A DNA stretch of 64,000 nucleotides from Cordylochernes scorpioides (taxonomy: Eukaryota; Arthropoda; Arachnida; Pseudoscorpiones; Chernetidae), in NCBI GenBank assembly GCA_030710605.1, contig CP092880.1:9662072-9726071 (forward strand). Direction: 5' to 3'. Both the position numbers and the translations under genes were made by a program. Under the pieces are notes generated by a model. It did no database searches. It was not told the origin of the DNA and worked only from the letters and a program-made list of their open reading frames with translations. Below, one piece after another: positions 7,553 through 55,090 of the stretch (positions within the stretch are counted from its first letter, which is position 1; each line of letters opens with the position of its first letter).

Positions 7553-8855
7553 CAGGGTGTACCAGGTAAATTGGGAATTTCAACAATGGTATTTTAACTG
7601 AAATTTTTTGCAAGTAAAAATTAAAATATCCGAATGAAATTTGACACAGTAGTAGATAAAAGGATATAGTTTTTATTTATTCAATGTAGTTTCCATTATT
7701 AGCTACAACAGTCTCGAGGCGAGTGCGGAATGAAGCACAGGCCTTGGCGACGATGACCTTGTCCATTTGGGTCATCACCGTGTGAACTGCTTTCTTGACA
7801 GACTGGATGGTGGTATGAGGAGCTTTGTTGACATCTCTCTCAACAACGCCCCATACATAGTAGTCGAGGGGATTGCAATCTGGAGAATTAGGGGGCCAAA
7901 TATCAGGACCCCAGTGACTAGGGACGTTAAGTGTCAGCCACGATTGTGTCTTTTTTGCCTTATGGGCTGGAGCTGAGTCCTGTTGGAAGACATACTTCCT
8001 TCCTGCGGCCACCATGTCCATCCAAGGCTTCACAACGGTCTCCAGAACATTGATGTAGGTGTCAGCGTTCATCCTAAGGCCCTTCTCAAAGAAATGGGGA
8101 GGCATGACATCACCTTCACTGCTGATAACGCCAAGGACCATTACGGAGGCAGGAAATTTCGTGTGCATCACGACAGGTATCTCTGAGGGGTCTTTACAGA
8201 TCCAGCGATCATTCCTGGGATTTACCTTTTGGTCCACGTCAAAGTTCTTTTCGTCAGAGAAGAACCTTAGCATGCCAAAAGAGTCGTGTTTCAGGTTGTT
8301 GAGGAGGGCAGCAGCCTTTCCTTTTCTGTTATTCTTCATATTCTCAGTCAGCAACTGACCTTTCCGAAGGGCATAAGACATTAGACCAAGGTCCTCATGG
8401 ATAGTTCTGACAATTGTCATAGAGCCAACGTCCATTTCCTTGGCTATGGCCCTCATGCTCTTCCCAGGGTTTCCATCAATCTTCTCCTTGACATTTTTGA
8501 CAAATTCTTCACCTCTTACCCTGTCCGATCGACGCGAGTGCTTTTTCCTTGTAGCTATCCCCTCTTTGTTACTGTCAGCCTCATCAAACTGCTTCTTGAC
8601 ACGATAAATAGTGGTTTTGGGCAACTTAAGAAAATCCACTATCTCTTTGGGGCTCCTTCCGGCGCGCAGAGCAACGATGATAGCAGCTCGATTTTCAAAT
8701 TCTCGGTTACTGTTCATCACCACATTGCGCACACATGTACTGTTGCATTTTACATGAATATGGCTACGTTATGAAAAAAAAACAAGTTTTTAATCTCAAG
8801 TAGTTTTTGTTTTATGGACTGTCAAAGTTAGTCCCAATTTACCTGGTACACCCTG
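7553..8855 (-). mobile_element. Complete mariner-like DNA transposon
   Basis: Perfect 24-bp terminal inverted repeats beginning CAGGGTGTACCAGGTAAATT lie at 7553-7576 and 8832-8855, flanked by TA on both sides (7551-7552, 8856-8857). At 1303 bp with one intact transposase gene this is a full-length, possibly recently active element. It sits four bases beyond the target duplication of SINE S1. Confidence 0.95.
7677..8732 (-). CDS. Mariner-like transposase, intact, DD37D
   Basis: 351 residues without stop or frameshift. Residues 1-120 form a paired-type helix-turn-helix DNA-binding region (KEIVDFLKLPKTTIYRVKKQ near 30-48 is the first HTH). The DDE/D domain follows: D160 in FFSDEKNF, D252 in FQQDSAPAH and D290 in NPLDYYVWG. 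D252 and D290 have 37 residues between them, so the triad is DD37D, as in maT-type Tc1/mariner relatives rather than classic DD34D mariner. The enzyme cuts and pastes the element at TA. The start is the first ATG in frame; the second Met at residue 6 could serve. It is flanked by 1303-bp element ends, so it can be self-sufficient. Confidence 0.93.
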   Translation of the reverse strand: MRNVVMNSNREFENRAAIIVALRAGRSPKEIVDFLKLPKTTIYRVKKQFDEADSNKEGIATRKKHSRRSDRVRGEEFVKNVKEKIDGNPGKSMRAIAKEMDVGSMTIVRTIHEDLGLMSYALRKGQLLTENMKNNRKGKAAALLNNLKHDSFGMLRFFSDEKNFDVDQKVNPRNDRWICKDPSEIPVVMHTKFPASVMVLGVISSEGDVMPPHFFEKGLRMNADTYINVLETVVKPWMDMVAAGRKYVFQQDSAPAHKAKKTQSWLTLNVPSHWGPDIWPPNSPDCNPLDYYVWGVVERDVNKAPHTTIQSVKKAVHTVMTQMDKVIVAKACASFRTRLETVVANNGNYIE

Positions 8856-14149: not shown

Positions 14150-16490
14150 TTATACACTCCTCAGTTCCACACCGAGGAAGTACCTATAGATGTGTGTCTT
14201 GGCAGACGCCAGGATGGCCAGGGCGTCATCGTCTAGGCCATGCCCGAAGACCCAGCCCTGCAGGTCAGGGGGCCGCCCGATGATGGTAATTGCCTCCCGG
14301 ATGAGAGGCCTGATGTAGCAGCAGGACCAGTACCGGTGAACCAGCGACAGGTCGCCGGACCCACAGGCGATGCAAGACTTTGTGCCGATGCTGGATGGGG
14401 CAGGGCGTGCAGAGCTAGCCTCACTGCCATGTTGTGCCCGGAGAAGGCGGAGCGACGACCAGCCGATGTTGATGGGTAGGTTTATATTTTCCTCCCACCA
14501 TCTAGCGAACTGGATGATGGGCAGAGCAGTCAGGCGTAGGCGCTCTAAGATGCGACGGGCAGTTCGGGTGATGACTTGCAAGAACGGCGTAGTCGTCCCG
14601 CGCAGCACTACGGCCTGGCCGATGGTGTTTACTCGGTAGGTCCCGCGTAGATTTTTCGTCGATAAGACGACGGCAGATGCTGGTCAGCGACGCGGCGTCA
14701 GCCAGGGCGCAGCGCGTAGGCCGAGTGAGGGAAGGGGTAGGGCCAGCGAAGTCCCCAATGCAGGCACTGACCCACCGGGTAGGAGCGAGAAGGTCGGGTG
14801 GCCGGAGAAGGCGGCAGCCACCTATGATGGGGAGGTTCAGGAGTTGATGTGGTGTAAGCACAGAGTGGTCTAGCGTGAAGATGTCAGCGACCGCCTCCCA
14901 GATCTTAAGAAGCCGGAGACGCCGTGGCGAGAACCAGGACCCGGATGGAGGTGGATATAGCCACGCATCGCTCTCGACCAGCCAAGAGTAGGCATTACGG
15001 CTTCCACGCAGTGCGGCCTGCACGCCCTTGAAGCACGACAACCGCAGCTGGGTCTCGATGTCGATGAATCCGAATCCTCCAAGAGATACAGATCTCGCCA
15101 GGACGCTACCAGGAAACCAGGCGGTGCGCTCCAGCCCCCAGATGAACCGCGCAAGACGTGCCTGGTCTTGTGGTCGGTAGGCAGGTAGCCGTGGATATGA
15201 TGGACCACCGAGGAGAGAACCAAGGAGTTGGCGGCTCTGGCCCGGCCGACGAGAGAGAGGCCGCGGGTGTAGGGAAACCACCTCGTTATAGCAGCTTCGA
15301 GCAGGACCAGGATATGTCTTTCTTGGGCTGAGTTTTGATTTCCTGGCGTCACATTGCAGCCCAACACCTTCAGTTCGACCGACGACCAGGAGATGCCGAG
15401 TGGAGCGTCGTTGCGGGCACGCCAGGCGCCGCACCATAGACCTTTGCTCTTGGTGAAATTTCCCTTTATGCCGGAGGCGCGCCGGAAGTTCTTGAAGTTG
15501 GAGGTCACCACGCCGAACTGTTCCTCCCTGCAGATGAGCAGGACGATGTCGTAGGCGAGGACATTACCGGGGCCGAGCGCTTGCTCAAGGCGACGTAGGA
15601 GAGGGCTTGTGGCGAGGCTGAACATTGCGGCGCTGATGGCGCAGCCCTGTCTCACACCGTTCAGAAGCTGGAAGGGTTTGGTGTGGAGGCCTCCGGCTCG
15701 GACTGTCGCGTCCGCTCCGGCATAGAGGAGGAGAAACCACCCAATGAAAACCTGTGGCAGCGAGACCATCAGGGACACCAAGAAGCCGCGGTCTAGGGTG
15801 TCGAAGGCAGACTCGAGGTCGGTGGAAATGACGGCGAGCCGGTCCTTATAGCCGCGTCGACCTCGTCGCGCACACGCGCGATGTTCCAAAAAGGGTATCT
15901 ACCGGGAACGGCGTAGGTCTGGCACTGAGGTACCAGAACAGGAAGAGACGCCGGAGGAGGATATTGCCCAGGATCCGGTAGTCCGCCGTGGGGGGGCGAG
16001 ATAGGCCTGTAGCCGCAGAGTCCAGGGCCGCCGTGAGACTTGGGGGACCAGGCTGGTGCTGCGCCGCGTCGATGTAGGCCAAACCCCGCCGAGTTGGGAG
16101 GCCTCGTAGACGCGCTTGAGAGCGTTGACGAAGAAGTCCTCGTAGGCCATGTAGAACTCGCAGGGCAAGTCGTCCCATCGGGGGGGGGGGGGGGGGCCTT
16201 TCAAGCGGCGGATGGCGGTGGCGATCTCTGTCGCGGAGATCTCGGAGCGGAGCAGGGGATCGTCATCTTCGAGGATGAGGGGGGTCGTCGTCCCCTGGAT
16301 GAATTCTGTAGCGGCGATGTAGGATAGAGTAGACCCTGCGTCGTAACTCCGTGCCCTCGATGATGTTTCCTTCTTCATCGCGGAAGTTCGTCCTTGCAGG
16401 CCGGCACACACGAAGCGCGCGCCCAAGGTTGAGCAGTGATGGATAGTCCGCTTCCATCGACGCAGCTTCGATCCTGGCCTGCATCATCAA
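14150..16490 (-). pseudogene. L1/Tx1-like LINE ORF2, 5'-truncated and frame-broken
   Basis: Overlapping minus-strand frames jointly spell a non-LTR reverse transcriptase. In order: the RT entry block EISATEIATAIRRLKG with LPCEFYM (16200s); RPPTADYRILGNILLRRL (about 15970); motif A DLESAFDTLDRGFL (about 15800); NGVRQGCAISAAMFSLATSP (about 15650); the active-site region LAYDIVLLI (about 15550), where the expected A-D of YADD is missing; LSLVGRARAANSLVLSSVVH (15240); FIWGLERTAWFPGSVL with LGGFGFIDIE (15130-15050); and a C-terminal CIACGSGDLSLVHRYWSCC (about 14350). Frames change several times, once beside an 18-G run (about 16179-16196). No endonuclease remains. GC content is far above the flanks. 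The gene is dead. Confidence 0.85.
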
Positions 16491-19445: not shown

Positions 19446-19589
19446 AGTGGTTATAGCATCATATTTTTCATCTCAGTAAGGACAGTAGAAGTTTGTATTG
19501 TGTATAAAAGAAACATTTGTGCTTTTAAATCTTTTCATTTTATAAATATAGATGTAGATGGAAAATTTGCCGGGAGGAAATTAATCCAC

Positions 19590-19922
19590 AGAAGCACAGG
19601 GCGCCTCTCCCATAAAAATAAACGTCAAAACCTGACGCCATCTATTGACTGTCGCCGCAACTAGCGGCCTCGGGTCGGTGACAAAGCCACAACACCAGCT
19701 TTGGCAAACTTAGATCCCATGTGGATCTCATGGAATAAAGTCCGCCCTAGACTGATGAGGGCCATTAGCCCGAAACCATGGTCTCTAGGTGGACGCTTCT
19801 CAGTTTGCCAAAGCTGGTGTTGTGGCTTTGTCACCGACCCGAGGCCGCTAGTTGCGGCGACAGTCAATAGATGGCATCAGGTTTTGACGTTTATTTTGAC
19901 GAGAGAGGTGCCCTGTGCTTCT
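19590..19922. mobile_element. Fold-back element M carrying a hammerhead ribozyme
   Basis: Two 121-bp inverted arms (19590-19710 and 19802-19922), nearly perfect, with a 91-bp spacer. It sits inside family F at an ATATAGATG-like site present on both sides. Arms share CGCCGCAACTAGCGGCCTCG and CACAACACCAGCTTTGGC. The frames on both strands across the arms are not genes. Degraded relatives lie at about 38.4-38.6 and 54.5-54.8 kb. Confidence 0.82.
19740..19794 (+). ncRNA. Canonical type I hammerhead ribozyme, 55 nt, in element M
   Basis: Stem I: GUCC-GC-CCUAGA (19740-19751) pairs with UCUAGG-U-GGAC (19784-19794), ten pairs with a small internal loop. Core CUGAUGA 19752-19758. Stem II GGGC-CAUUA-GCCC 19759-19771. 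GAAA 19772-19775. Stem III ACC-AU-GGU 19775-19782. Cleavage triplet GUC, so the cut would be after 19783. Every invariant position fits the hammerhead model. Activity is inferred from structure only. Confidence 0.88.
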
Positions 19923-20271
19923 ATATATAGATGTGCGTTATTGCTTTGTATTGATTTATGCCTAACTGGTCTTGTCCTTATTGTTTGGGGAAGAGGGTTG
20001 CTCGATGCAAATATTTATATGTAATTCTACTGTCCTATAAGCTTATGTCCATAGTTTTCTTGAAAACCATTTTTGAGATTCTACCCTTCAGTGCTGTGTA
20101 TATAAGCAGAATCTTCCAATACAGTATTAGAGCTCCAAGAAGCGGTCTGGTGGATTAAATTGGCGAAACTGTTGGGAGGGTTCACCACTGATGAGTCAAG
20201 CCCTCCCAATATATCTATCACAACTATCGATTTCGGAAGATGACCGACTTCTGTGACAACGGAATTGTTTG

Positions 20272-22197: not shown

Positions 22198-22859
22198 CTA
22201 GACGAATGGCCCGGGCAACGCCCGGGTTTTACCCGAGTGCGAATATATTTTAAAAACGTTGTCTTGGGTGGTCGCTATAGACAGGGTGGTCTGTATAGAC
22301 AGGTGTATGTATCACACAGCTGATAACAGGGTTGTCTAGAGTGGCTGCTATAGACAGGGTGGTCTGTATAGACAGGTGAATGTAACACACTGATGATAAC
22401 AGGGTTGCCTAAAGTGACCGCTATAGACAGGGTGGACTGTATAGACAGGTGGATGTATCACACAGCTGATAACAGGGTTGTCTAGAGTGGCCGCTATAGA
22501 CAGGTGTATGTATCACACAGCTGATAACAGGGTTATCTAGAATGGCCGCTATATACAGGGTTGTCTGTATAGGCAGGTGGATGTATCACACAGCTGATAA
22601 CAGGGTTGTCTAGAGTGGTCGCTATAGGCAGGGTGGTCAGTGGTCGCTATAGACAGGGTGGTCTGTATAGACAGGTGGATGTAACACACTGCTGATAACA
22701 GGGTTGTCTAGAATGGCCGCTATAGACAGGTGTATGTATCACACAGCTGATAACAGGGTTGTCTAGAGGGGGGCAGGGAGGACACGTGTTCGCCGGCAGC
22801 CAATGGGCGCGCATTCTATCCGTGAGCTTCAGACAGAATAAGGCAATTATATATATAGA
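22198..22859 (-). mobile_element. Non-autonomous Helitron H5 with internal minisatellite
   Basis: The 3' end on the minus strand is hairpin CCCGGGCGTTGCCCGGG, CATTCGTCTAG; the 5' end is TCTATATATATAATTGCC. Inserted A|T. The interior is mostly a tandem repeat (22300-22770). Confidence 0.78.
22300..22770 (+). repeat. Minisatellite, seven units of about 73 or 55 bp
   Basis: Units begin TGTATGTATCACACAGCTGA or a close variant and continue TAACAGGGTTGTCTAGAGTG and GCCGCTATAGACAGG. The 55-bp units lack one GGTGGTCTGTATAGACAGG-type segment, so two unit lengths alternate. Confidence 0.88.
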
Positions 22860-38399: not shown

Positions 38400-38810
38400 T
38401 TTTGGCCTAGCCACTTACTCACCAGCTAAACATGTGGAAAAATTCACAAGATTTTATGAATCTCTTGTGGATCTCATCAAAGCAATACCTGAAATCATAT
38501 TCTCCAGGTAGACGTTCTGAATTTTCCAAAACTGGTGTTGTGGCTTTTTCACAGATCCAAGTTCCATACTGCGGAGGAAGTTGATATTATAATTTCTTGT
38601 GAAACCTTTCAACATCATCGCTCGGAGAGTTTATCATAGAAAATTGCCATTCTGGCTGTTTGCCCACCCAAGCTTCTAAATTGGTGGTATGGACACATTC
38701 TAGTATCTTCAAGTGCCTTGATGTTTGCCCAGTGTAAACTCTATCTGAGAAATTTCAGCATTCCTTCTCTCTTTATATATGTATCTATCCATTTTCTCAA
38801 CTATACTGGC
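38400..38810. mobile_element. Degraded relative of element M
   Basis: TTGTGGATCTCATCAAAGCA, CTCCAGGTAGACGTTCTGAA and AACTGGTGTTGTGGCTTTT match the spacer and right arm of M; the hammerhead core is lost. Confidence 0.5.
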
Positions 38811-44690: not shown

Positions 44691-45189
44691 ATAAAGTCTG
44701 TAAAATTAGTCAGTTATATATTAAAGAGGTTATATTGTATTTTAATGGGAGAGGTAACCTTTTTCTTTGTATAGATCAATATCCTCTCGTCAAAATTTTG
44801 TTCATTTAGGTTTGTTATAAAAGGAAGGTTATCCCTGGCTTATTTTAGAAAGGTTTTACCATATTTTTATCTTCTTATTGTGAATATGAAAGAAAACCCA
44901 GATGGAAGTGAACAATTGACATGTAATAATAGAGCTGGGATGGACAAAAGTTGAGAAGTTAGTTCTGAGAAAAATTTAATCTAGTTTACATCCTGGGTTT
45001 TCCCACAAGTGCCTAGCTTTCTCAAACCGTTGCAATTTCCTGGTGGACATGATGTGAACTGATATCTCTCTCTTTGCTGTAAGGTAAGTGTCTATAGAAA
45101 ATAATTTTAGATTCCGTATAAACTTGTTAATTGGACTCTTGCAATAATTCGATCCTGTTTTCACAACCCAACCTCCAGCCTATTAAAAA

Positions 45190-45678
45190 ATTAACACAAA
45201 GCAATAACGCGCCATCTATACATATAAAATAAAAGAATTTAAAAGCGCGAATGTTTCTTTTATACATAAAACAAACTTCTACTGTCCTTACTGCGATGAA
45301 AAAATATATTGGGAGGGCTTGGCTCATCAGTGGTGAACCCTCACAGCGGTTTCGCCAATTTAATCCACCAGACCGCTTCTCAGAGCTCTAATACTGTATT
45401 GGATCATTCTACTTTTATATGCTACACTGAAGGATGGAATCTTAGAAATAGTTTTCAAGTAAACTTTCAAGTATATTTGCTTCGAGCAATGCTCTTCAGC
45501 AAACTATAAAGACAAGGCCAGTTTGGAATAAATTAACACAAAGCAATAACGCGCCATCTATACATATAAAATAAAAGAATTTAAAAGCGCGAATGTTTCT
45601 TTTATACATAAAACGAACTTCTACTGTCCTTACTGCGATGAAAAAATATATTGGGAGGGCTTGGCTCATCAGTGGTCA
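45190..45678 (-). mobile_element. Family F, direct tandem: one 342-bp unit plus a second partial unit
   Basis: ATTAACACAAAGCAATAACG starts at 45190 and again at 45532; the second unit repeats the first 145 bases almost exactly. Contains the CTGATGAG/GGCGAAAC block on the minus strand. Confidence 0.8.
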
Positions 45679-50919: not shown

Positions 50920-51224
50920 GTACCTCCCCCTACTTACCTTACCGAATCTCTCTCTCTAGCTGCTGCATGGTCTTTCTTTCTTTGTTCCCAAGCTGCTTTC
51001 TCTCTCATGGCTGCTGGTACTAGCCTCTTGGCATCATGTGGGACTAATCACTTTAAGTATAGTTAAGAGATCAATTACAAATATATATATATCTATAGTG
51101 TAGAAACTATATAACAAAATTATAACAGTGATTCTACTTTTAAAACTTAAGGAGCAAACTGATAATAATGATAACTTATATCAATTAGATTTGATTAGAT
51201 TAGCAAGCTAAATCTAAATTAATT

Positions 51225-52552
51225 ATAATAATAAATAGTTATTTAATTTTATAGTCCAGTTTTGTATTAAGATTATCTTCACTATTATGATCATTTAAAT
51301 TCAAATTATAAAATTTGTAAAATGTTATTAATTTGTAGATAGAGAGAGAGAAAAAAAAATCCTTTACTTCTAATACATCATCAAGTTAATTATATATTTA
51401 TAATTAATAACAATAAAAATTAACAACGTAACGTCTTTTGCATCGGCTTTTACACGTCATTTAGACATACTCTAATCCTATATATAGAATAATCGAAGTG
51501 AGAATATATATAATAGTTAGAAAAAAGAGAGAAAGAGACAGAACCATGCACTTTTAATCAAACTAATAATAAGGAAAAAAAAAAAGGTTTGTAAAGAAGG
51601 TAGATAAGATTGTTAGTATATATATATATATTTTTATAATTTTATATTTTATCCTTTTTTTTTTTTAAAGATTTTTTAAGGTTTTTTTTATTTTATAATA
51701 TGATTATAAATAGTTGTATTTAGTAATATATCTATAGTATGAATTAACATTTGTTATAAGTTTGGATATTATGTTTTGAAACCCTAATGGTAGACCAGAC
51801 ATACACAAAAAACTTTAAATTGAAATAAATTGGAAAAAGAGATCTGCTGGACCGGGGATCTTCAGATAAAAGCCCAGCGACATTTCACCCCTTCTGTGTG
51901 TCGCTGGGCTTTTATCTGAAGATCCCCGGTCCAGCAAATCTCTTTTTCCAATTTATTTCAATTTAAAGTTTTTTGTGTATGTCTGGTCTACCATTAGGGT
52001 TTCAAAACATAATATCCAAACTTATAACAAATGTTAATTCATACTATAGATATATTACTAAATACAACTATTTATAATCATATTATAAAATAAAAAAACC
52101 TTAAAAAATCTTAAAAAAAAAAAGGATAAAATATAAAATTATAAAAATATATATATATATACTAACAATCTTATCTACCTTCTTTACAAACCTTTTTTTT
52201 TTTCCTTATTATTAGTTTGATTAAAAGTGCATGGTTCTGTCTTTCTCTCTTTTTTCTAACTATTATATATATTCTCACTTCGATTATTCTATATATAGGA
52301 TTAGAGTATGTCTAAATGACGTGTAAAAGCCGATGCAAAAGACGTTACGTTGTTAATTTTTATTGTTATTAATTATAAATATATAATTAACTTGATGATG
52401 TATTAGAAGTAAAGGATTTTTTTTTTCTCTCTCTCTATCTACAAATTAATAACATTTTACAAATTTTATAATTTGAATTTAAATGATCATAATAGTGAAG
52501 ATAATCTTAATACAAAACTGGACTATAAAATTAAATAACTATTTATTATTAT
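51225..52552. repeat. 1.3-kb near-perfect palindrome (fold-back element K)
   Basis: Arms of about 655-665 bp (51225-51890 and 51900-52552) mirror each other almost base for base; only about ten bases separate them (TTTCACCCCTTC region). Inner arm: GCTGGACCGGGGATCTTCAG and AAAGCCCAGCGACA. No coding capacity. A diverged relative lies near 30.3-30.75 kb. Confidence 0.88.
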
Positions 52553-52571
52553 ATATATATATATATATATA

Positions 52572-52749: not shown

Positions 52750-53734
52750 TATATATATATATGTAATAAATGAAGGATTATTGCAGGTAGTTTGAGTGTG
52801 GAAAGTCCTTTATAAAAAGCCTTGAATAGGTTCATATCCCTCCTGACAACTGTTTTGCCCATGAAACTTGACTAATAAGTAGAGGTTTTGAAGACCATGG
52901 ATAGGACCAAAGCAATCAGAACTAACACATTCACTGCATCAAAGAAACTTCTTGCATGCATTCTCGTTTTTTCCATACTAATCACACTTTGCCTGTGTGG
53001 AAATTATAAATTTGATTAACCCAGTTGCCATCTGGCACATTACATACATTGAATTTATACCAAGGCGCCTCTCTCTTCCACATCAACAAACATTTTTGTC
53101 CTCCTAATGCTGTGTAGATCTTATATGCTCAAGACTGCATTTAAATATATACATTTATGTTATATCATATTTTTGAAATAGAAATTATTTGCTGATTTTG
53201 AATACATGTGTTTTTTTAAATGGTGTGCAGTCATAAACCTTTTTCAGCTATTGATATACAGTCTACTCTCGTTATAACGCCACCATCCGGATTTTGCAAA
53301 AAGGCGACGTAAGGTGAGGGTGGCGTTCTATCGAACACGTTTAAAATGTGAAATTTAAAGATTCTCAATAAATTATTTATAACAATTAATAATAACAATT
53401 TATATTTAAGTCTCAATATATAGAATGCAAAACCGGCATTAATTGATTAATATGATAAATAGAAAGCATTAATTTATAATTTATTCATAAAAAAATAATT
53501 ACATTTTCTTGAAGAAGTCTGTGTTCACAACTTGTGTTTTCTCTCCCTCACTTATGCCATAGACACGGTGTAACAAATCCGCAGATAGATTGACGTCGTC
53601 AGATGTTGCTCTCTTGGAGTGCTCAAGAAACAACAATAGTGATACTGATACTAAACTCTTGTGGAATGGGTATTTAGATTAACTATGGACATAAGCTTTG
53701 AGGTCAGTAGAATTTTACATACAATTATAAATAT

Positions 53735-54345
53735 ATACTATTTCCATCGCAGTAAGGGCAGTAAAAATTGTTTAACTTTCAAAAGAATCATACGCTTCTA
53801 TAATAGTTTCCAATTTTCATAACAGATGGCGCGCAAATGCTTTTTATGTAATAAGGTGCTTTCATTGGATAGCTCAGAATCTTGAATTCCGAGTTAAATG
53901 TTTTGCTCTCGTTTTTCACCAGTTTTTAGAATTATTTTATCCGATCGTTAATATGACCTTATCATAGACTTCTAAATATTTATTTTCATATTTTCCATCT
54001 GATTTTGTTTTCAAATGAATCATAAATTGCATAAAACAGATGGCGAGTTAATTCATAATGTTCATATTAAGTCTAAATGAACTTTACTTGTTGTTTGCGG
54101 AAGAGCAGCGCTCGAAGCATGTTTAGGAATTTATAAATATTTGTATTTCTACTGTACTTAAGCTTATGTTCATAGTTGTTTAAAATCCCTTTTCCAATAG
54201 TTTATCTTTAGTATTACTATAAAATAAAAACAGGAAAATACAAAAATTAAGCGGGATGGTAGATTAAACTGACAAAACCGCCAAGTAGATATACAAATGA
54301 TGAACCAGGCCCTCCCATCATTTTTATCATTGCGGTAAATATACT
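53735..54345 (+). mobile_element. Family F copy nested in the Tigger element
   Basis: CATCGCAGTAAGGGCAGTAA, two CAGATGGCG units about 230 bases apart, GAGCAGCGCTCGAAGCA and CAGGCCCTCCCATCA. Confidence 0.6.
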
Positions 54346-54479
54346 AGAAATTTAGTTGTTTTTAAAATGATCAAAGGCATCATAAATAGTTGAAATTTCC
54401 TACAAATGAATATATTGTATTATTTTAGGTCCATACGATTTGTTAATTTGTTCCTTGATATGATTTGAGAAGTTTATGG

Positions 54480-55090
54480 ATGGAAACATTTCTAGGCGAA
54501 GCTGACCTAAAATATATAAAGGCCCCTCCTCTCTCCCCGTCAACATAGATACAATAACTTTGCTATATATCTATCAACCATTTTCTTCAATCTAGCAGAC
54601 TGGTGGAGGTCAATGCCACAATAACATCTTTGTAAAATTCAGAATGTCACCAGGAGACCATGGTTTGGTTTATGGCTCTCGGCAGTCTAGGGAGAGCTTT
54701 GATTTCATGTTATCCGCAAGGGATGCGTAGAATTTACCCAAAGAGTTATTCAGCGCACTCAAAGTGGTTAGTTTAATTCTATGGGGGAGATATATATGTA
54801 AATTTGTCACTTAACCGAGAGAGAGAGTCTGCAAGGTTGATGAGGCATTCAATCAATAGAGGCATAGTTCTGGCGTCTTTTTTGATGCAAAATGCGACGT
54901 TTATTTTTTGCTAATTCTAGTATATGATTGAGGGTCACCCAGAGTTCGAAAATGGCACTGAATTTAATGAAACCTCTCAATGTCATATAATCAAGGAAGG
55001 GCATGGTACATCAGTGGGGAATCCTCCCATCGGTTTAGCCAGTTCAAGCTCCAGACCGTTCAACTATTGTTATAGATGGATTCTATCATA
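54480..55090. mobile_element. Degraded M and F pieces nested in the Tigger element
   Basis: Minus-strand CCCTAGACTGCCGAGAGCC and AAACCATGGTCTCCTGG (about 54645-54700) are a mutated copy of M's hammerhead. F sequence follows at 54990-55080 (minus, CCACTGATGTACC). Confidence 0.55.

Follow-up and report, generated by a model that had tools for sequence, protein, structure and literature searches.

A type I hammerhead motif in a probable Penelope-like remnant in the genome of the pseudoscorpion Cordylochernes scorpioides

The DNA analysed here, referred to as the window, is a stretch of 64,000 nucleotides of Cordylochernes scorpioides (assembly GCA_030710605.1, contig CP092880.1, positions 9,662,072 to 9,726,071 of the forward strand), and positions are counted from its first letter. 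Near its start, a tRNA-like sequence (RF00005, 40.7 bits, 1280-1215 on the minus strand) lies inside an inverted repeat of roughly 32 bp at 1058-1310, followed by a nearly intact Tc1/mariner-type transposase reading frame of 351 aa with HTH_23 and DDE_3 domains (7677-8732, minus strand). A frameshifted reverse transcriptase at 14150-16426 on the minus strand (RVT_1, E 7e-10) is probably derived from a LINE, and its RVT_1 match at 14873-15898 looks like a LINE-type enzyme. At 22258-22768 there are nested tandem repeats with a 73-bp basic unit and CTATAGACAGG motifs. A very long palindrome at 51224-52553 consists of two halves of 665 nt that agree at 656 of the 673 columns of their alignment.

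The element of interest is an insert of 369 bp at 19556-19924, with a GC content of 51%, which is bracketed by an exact 10-bp duplication of ATATAGATGT at 19546-19555 and 19925-19934. It contains an inverted repeat with arms at 19590-19714 and 19798-19922, each 125 bp long and complementary to one another at 119 of 125 positions, around a spacer of 83 bp in which a hammerhead motif is located. The inverted repeat around the motif is real; the earlier note had described it correctly in kind, with an arm length of 121 bp and a spacer of 91 bp that are corrected here. An imperfect palindrome, AGATCCCATGTGGATCT, is found at the inversion junction (19712-19728).

The insert splits a copy of a host repeat, unit A, into a left part (19464-19554, plus strand) and a right part (19935-20214, plus strand). 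Alignments of the two flanks overlap at this copy, and unit A is unbroken at the matching point in all three other copies that span it within the window, two of which belong to a tandem at 45 kb and one of which lies near 53.8 kb. Unit A is a 342-bp repeat present as approximately 1.4 tandem units at 45185-45676 (minus strand), with a possible 10-bp duplication around them, and also at 19464-20214, 53733-54353, 55058-54995 and 6305-6209; at 19.4-20.2 kb it forms one, seemingly permuted, unit. Near its end, it carries the segments UUGGC-GAAAC ... CUGAUGA-GCCAA, reminiscent of a permuted hammerhead. A second hammerhead, of type II, was considered for unit A and rejected, as the RF02276 match (12.1 bits, E 3.7) is at chance level and the core differs in two other copies.

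The motif at 19740-19794 on the plus strand comprises the core and three stems of a type I hammerhead, with stem I open. The core elements CUGAUGA and GAAA and a UH cleavage site are present, stem II is GGGC/GCCC closed by a CAUUA loop, and two pairings are possible for stem I, one of 11 bp in which a C is bulged out and one of 6+4 bp separated by an internal loop (GC/U). According to the hammerhead model, cleavage is predicted after the GUC at 19783, i.e. between 19783 and 19784. All parts of a type I hammerhead that the earlier note had assigned to this interval were recovered in place. A descriptor made up of CTGAYGA, GAAA and UH, with minimum lengths of 3, 2 and 4 bp for stems II, III and I, respectively, matched this site alone on both strands of the window, and matched nothing in 300 dinucleotide shuffles; a tighter hammerhead pattern had a single match in the window, whereas 100 shuffles yielded none. 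As a specificity control, and solely for that use, hammerhead-like matches from viral contigs were compared: among 44 matches to a related pattern, 43 of them from 35 viral-contig stretches (duplicates included) and one being the site itself, a stem I of at least 4 bp occurred only at 19740-19794. Judged by its letters, the hammerhead motif is real. Patterns taken from the ribozyme and the arm mostly yielded no matches in viral contigs, and one such pattern matched three viral contigs whose common part is just a 21-bp stretch. Such patterns likewise had no match in the genome contigs collection, nor did the insert match phage records.

The earlier note had called the motif canonical, which the results do not bear out. 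None of the Rfam hammerhead families reached its gathering score. In a search with an 86-base query, RF02275 (Hammerhead_HH9) aligned over its full length with 26.0 bits (E 4.6e-5; gathering score 52), and RF03152 scored 13.9 bits against a gathering score of 56.3. RF00163, the family against which the earlier note had proposed to check the motif, was unlisted up to E=10 in both the 86-base and the 901-base searches; the 901-base E-value search returned no hammerhead family among its matches, and a search of the entire 64 kb at gathering scores returned tRNA alone. The same note had regarded a covariance-model score below threshold as refuting its claim. The scores are formally below threshold, but the full-length HH9 alignment keeps this from being decisive. 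The site shares with HH9 the topology and, in the alignment, a 6-bp inner stem I, whereas its stem I internal loop is smaller and its score is half the gathering value. A match of the long hairpin to RF03450 MIR1513 (43.7 bits, gathering score 95) was rejected, being explained by the palindrome alone.

Predicted folding of a single copy does not favour the hammerhead either: the best monomer fold is a different structure at -21.9 kcal/mol, compared with -17.3 kcal/mol for the hammerhead with the 11-bp stem I and -14.9 kcal/mol with the 6+4 bp stem I. The weak part is stem III. The letters ACC/GGU assigned to it previously are present, but they cannot pair in the monomer because only a 2-nt loop would remain, so that stem III is 2 bp at most (AC/GU, with a CAUG loop). 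The whole of ACCAUGGU is, however, a perfect 8-nt palindrome corresponding to helix III; at the DNA level the self-complementary 8-mer ACCATGGT lies at 19775-19782 on the plus strand, and an 8-bp helix III is possible between two copies. Since stem III has 2 bp in the monomer but is part of an 8-nt palindrome, the ribozyme at 19740-19794 may act as a dimer. When two copies are cofolded, the best predicted structure is exactly the double hammerhead with open cores, at -51.6 kcal/mol compared with 2 x -21.9 kcal/mol. The energy gained by dimerisation is ordinary, as 278 of 500 shuffles equalled it, and we dropped it as evidence for this reason, retaining the predicted structure alone. Newt and viroid hammerheads are known to act as dimers (PMC6155905), and dimeric action has been suggested for those in Penelope pseudo-LTRs (pLTRs) (PMC7761336).

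That the motif is a chance or dead hammerhead-like sequence without activity seems very unlikely to us. Scores below every Rfam gathering threshold, a competing monomer fold that is better by 4.6 kcal/mol, the loss of the ribozyme core in both relatives described below (at 54 kb and 38 kb) and the fact that no standard loop-loop contacts were identified would all agree with inactivity, yet a complete core with three stems, seen in none of 300 shuffles, the HH9 match and the double hammerhead as best predicted dimer speak against it.

The two arms differ in their position relative to the duplication, from which the right arm is separated by 2 bp and the left arm by 34 bp. In a MITE, both arms would abut the duplication, and an element with this asymmetry is thus unfit for a transposon bounded by inverted repeats. 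It is therefore quite improbable that the insert is a fold-back MITE, i.e. a DNA transposon whose terminal inverted repeats measure 125 bp and which has a hammerhead aboard by chance. Long inverted repeats, here 95% complementary, and the lack of coding capacity are shared with such elements, and 10-bp duplications together with long terminal inverted repeats occur in Mutator-like and foldback elements. Besides the target duplication not adjoining the left arm, the relatives of the element in the window lack convincing left arms and the 34-bp extension is contiguous with the arm elsewhere, both of which count against a MITE. A limited search of the literature, covering excerpts of two of the sources, turned up no hammerhead described on a MITE or foldback carrier.

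The 34-bp extension is found outside the left arm only (19556-19589, minus strand). The 3' end of the arm together with this extension has a decayed relative at 44738-44798 on the plus strand, in which both are contiguous (BLAST with relaxed scoring, E 2.4e-5). The joint match has a score of 28, the best of 3082 other real windows reaching 20, and the extension alone scores 15 there compared with a best of 13 in real windows. Because the extension is contiguous with the 3' end of the arm at this second locus, it belongs to the element, as the stretch next to that end. We read it as a Penelope tail at the 3' end of an inverted pLTR. An open frame of 28 codons (P0001; 19556-19641, minus strand), beginning at the first ATG after an in-frame stop, runs through the tail, and the direct copy has the corresponding start codon at 19871 (plus strand); as evidence by itself, this frame is weak.

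Two further decayed relatives align with the centre and right arm of the element. One, at 54611-54724 on the minus strand, has 75% identity (BLAST, E 2.4e-14) and has lost the core, with CTGCCGA in place of the conserved box and GAAA lost, while ACCATGGT is kept. Its BLAST match begins at element position 19714, and further alignment carries it back to 19699. The other, at 38488-38561 on the plus strand, matches the right arm together with the 3' portion of the centre at 80% identity (BLAST, E 1.0e-12) and has also lost the ribozyme core; an 18-nt piece upstream (38460-38477) is a weak match with E 0.88, so its 5' boundary is weak and offers no independent support. Tests for the left arm gave mixed results. 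Aligned with the left arm of the element, the 54-kb copy scored 20, a value attained in 1 of 300 shuffles and in 2 of 1233 real windows; the score of 19 between its own arms was attained in 1 of 300 shuffles and in 11 of 1233 real windows, and for the inner 50 nt of these arms the count was 6 of 2000. The 38-kb copy has no homology to the left arm of the element (128 of 300 shuffles reach the score), and the values for its own flanks were 2 of 300, and 307 of 2000 for the inner 50 nt. Left-arm homology is thus weak in the 54-kb relative and absent in the 38-kb relative. We had first assumed the palindrome to be a feature of the family, and dropped this since the left-arm tests fail to establish it. 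Judged from these alignments, the palindrome is certain only for the copy at 19556-19924; given the weak left-arm signs at 54 kb, it might predate this copy.

These relatives also bear on a second group of carriers, the metazoan non-LTR retrozymes (PMC7229834, PMC4918200), which share with the insert a type I hammerhead, a short non-coding self-paired element and a duplication of more than 4 bp. The insert could then be a monomeric, rod-like retrozyme derived from a circular self-paired RNA of which a single round was copied into DNA; the hammerhead would sit at one end loop, and 19923-19924 plus 19556-19589 (36 nt) would form the other. Its length of 369 nt falls within the 170-400 nt of metazoan retrozyme RNAs and its 10-bp duplication agrees with the larger duplications mentioned in PMC7229834; folded as a circle, 84% of the insert is predicted to be paired, and the weak left-arm signs in the 54-kb relative would also fit. 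We nevertheless consider this origin unlikely, as the window contains a single motif without tandem copies, the left arm is absent from the 38-kb relative, the tail at 44.7 kb follows the arm with no inverted partner seen, and a GC content of 51% contrasts with the low values (<45%) reported in PMC7229834. The asymmetric tail and the relatives without a convincing second arm are further differences from retrozymes. A more specific version, to which we give little credence, is a fold-back retrozyme, in which the palindrome would be the propagated unit; it would exist as a rod-like RNA circle of 369 nt, tipped by a hammerhead that acts as a dimer, and undergo a single round of copying by a reverse transcriptase acting in trans.

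We conclude that the carrier is probably a non-coding Penelope-like remnant consisting of two head-to-head pLTRs, and not a new kind of carrier. The right pLTR would be direct and contain the type I hammerhead; it extends over 19712-19922 (plus strand, 211 bp), its last 125 bp being the right arm, or is 224 bp long if its start is placed at 19699, the first position aligned with the 54-kb relative. The left pLTR (19590-19714, minus strand) would be inverted and 5'-truncated to 125 bp, hence without ribozyme, and would bear the 34-bp tail. The pair would have inserted into unit A with a 10-bp target duplication. Penelope copies of Adineta vaga provide a close parallel (PMC3846280): pLTRs that measure 193-218 bp, an inverted pLTR that is shorter (181 bp) and placed head to head, an optional tail of 31 bp on one of the inverted pLTRs, target-site duplications of 8-10 bp, palindromes at the 5' ends of the pLTRs, and a reading frame that starts within the pLTR and is extended by the tail. 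The insert resembles these elements of the Penelope clade (Pen2 and Pen3 of A. vaga) in every one of these respects, with pLTRs of around 200 bp of which the inverted one is the shorter, a tail within the 30-40 bp range that continues the pLTR 3' end, an exact 10-bp duplication, a palindrome at the pLTR 5' end and a frame that opens in the pLTR and stays open through the tail. It differs from them in that no reading frame lies between the pLTRs, whereas inverted and direct pLTRs normally flank one, in that its inverted pLTR is more truncated and in that its hammerhead keeps a short helix III. Neither a Penelope reverse transcriptase nor a GIY-YIG endonuclease was found among the 56 ORFs scanned of the 71 window ORFs of at least 85 aa, a negative result that speaks against this origin but is to be expected for a remnant.

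Hammerheads have been described in Penelope pLTRs, reportedly without helix III or without loop contacts (PMC7761336, PMC6155905), and Penelope-like elements were among the type I hammerhead carriers that the earlier note had listed. The motif resembles these minimal hammerheads in being of type I, in its location in a pLTR, in its weak stem III and in a probably dimeric action, and differs from them by its long stem I and by a helix III that forms an 8-nt palindrome. The non-coding fold-back MITE, which the earlier note had named as the carrier, is probably not the right one given the asymmetry of the duplication, the left-arm-poor relatives and the tail that continues the arm at a second locus. 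The duplication, the relatives and the tail are features of Penelope pLTRs, a carrier type that was already on that list. The interpretation in the earlier note is partly supported, in that a type I hammerhead motif does lie in the spacer of an inverted repeat.

The motif, the arms, the asymmetry of the tail, the target duplication, the relatives and the continuation of the pLTR into the tail at a second locus are read directly from the DNA, and the following steps are a model built on them. RNA would be made from the pLTR, and since stem III forms 2 bp in the monomer or an 8-nt palindrome between two copies, pLTR transcripts would fold mainly in pairs into a double hammerhead. Ribozyme cleavage after 19783 would leave transcripts whose 5' end lies 87 nt ahead of the start codon at 19871. 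In the copy at 19556-19924, a cut in the loop of the 125-bp RNA hairpin would not alone part the two halves. The insert itself was presumably made by a Penelope-type enzyme encoded elsewhere, the tail may mark one of the two usual start points of that enzyme, and the head-to-head form could have arisen from self-priming or from priming on both target strands. A study of Anolis elements (PMC11167929) describes a tail between two reverse-transcription start sites, cutting and extension of both target strands, and a hammerhead at the pLTR/ORF boundary. Hammerhead mutants had no effect on insertion in vitro in that study, and any role of the cut in transposition is hypothetical.

A Penelope-like origin explains the presence of a ribozyme in what looked like a MITE without the need for a new carrier type. 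It also calls for caution, as a solo pair of Penelope pLTRs in head-to-head orientation can be mistaken for a fold-back transposon. If it were true that the palindrome itself propagates, the insert would represent a new form of retrozyme. The motif at 19740-19794 is a clear example of a hammerhead with a fully palindromic helix III and with the double hammerhead as its best dimer structure by prediction, and the dimer model for such ribozymes is testable directly on it.
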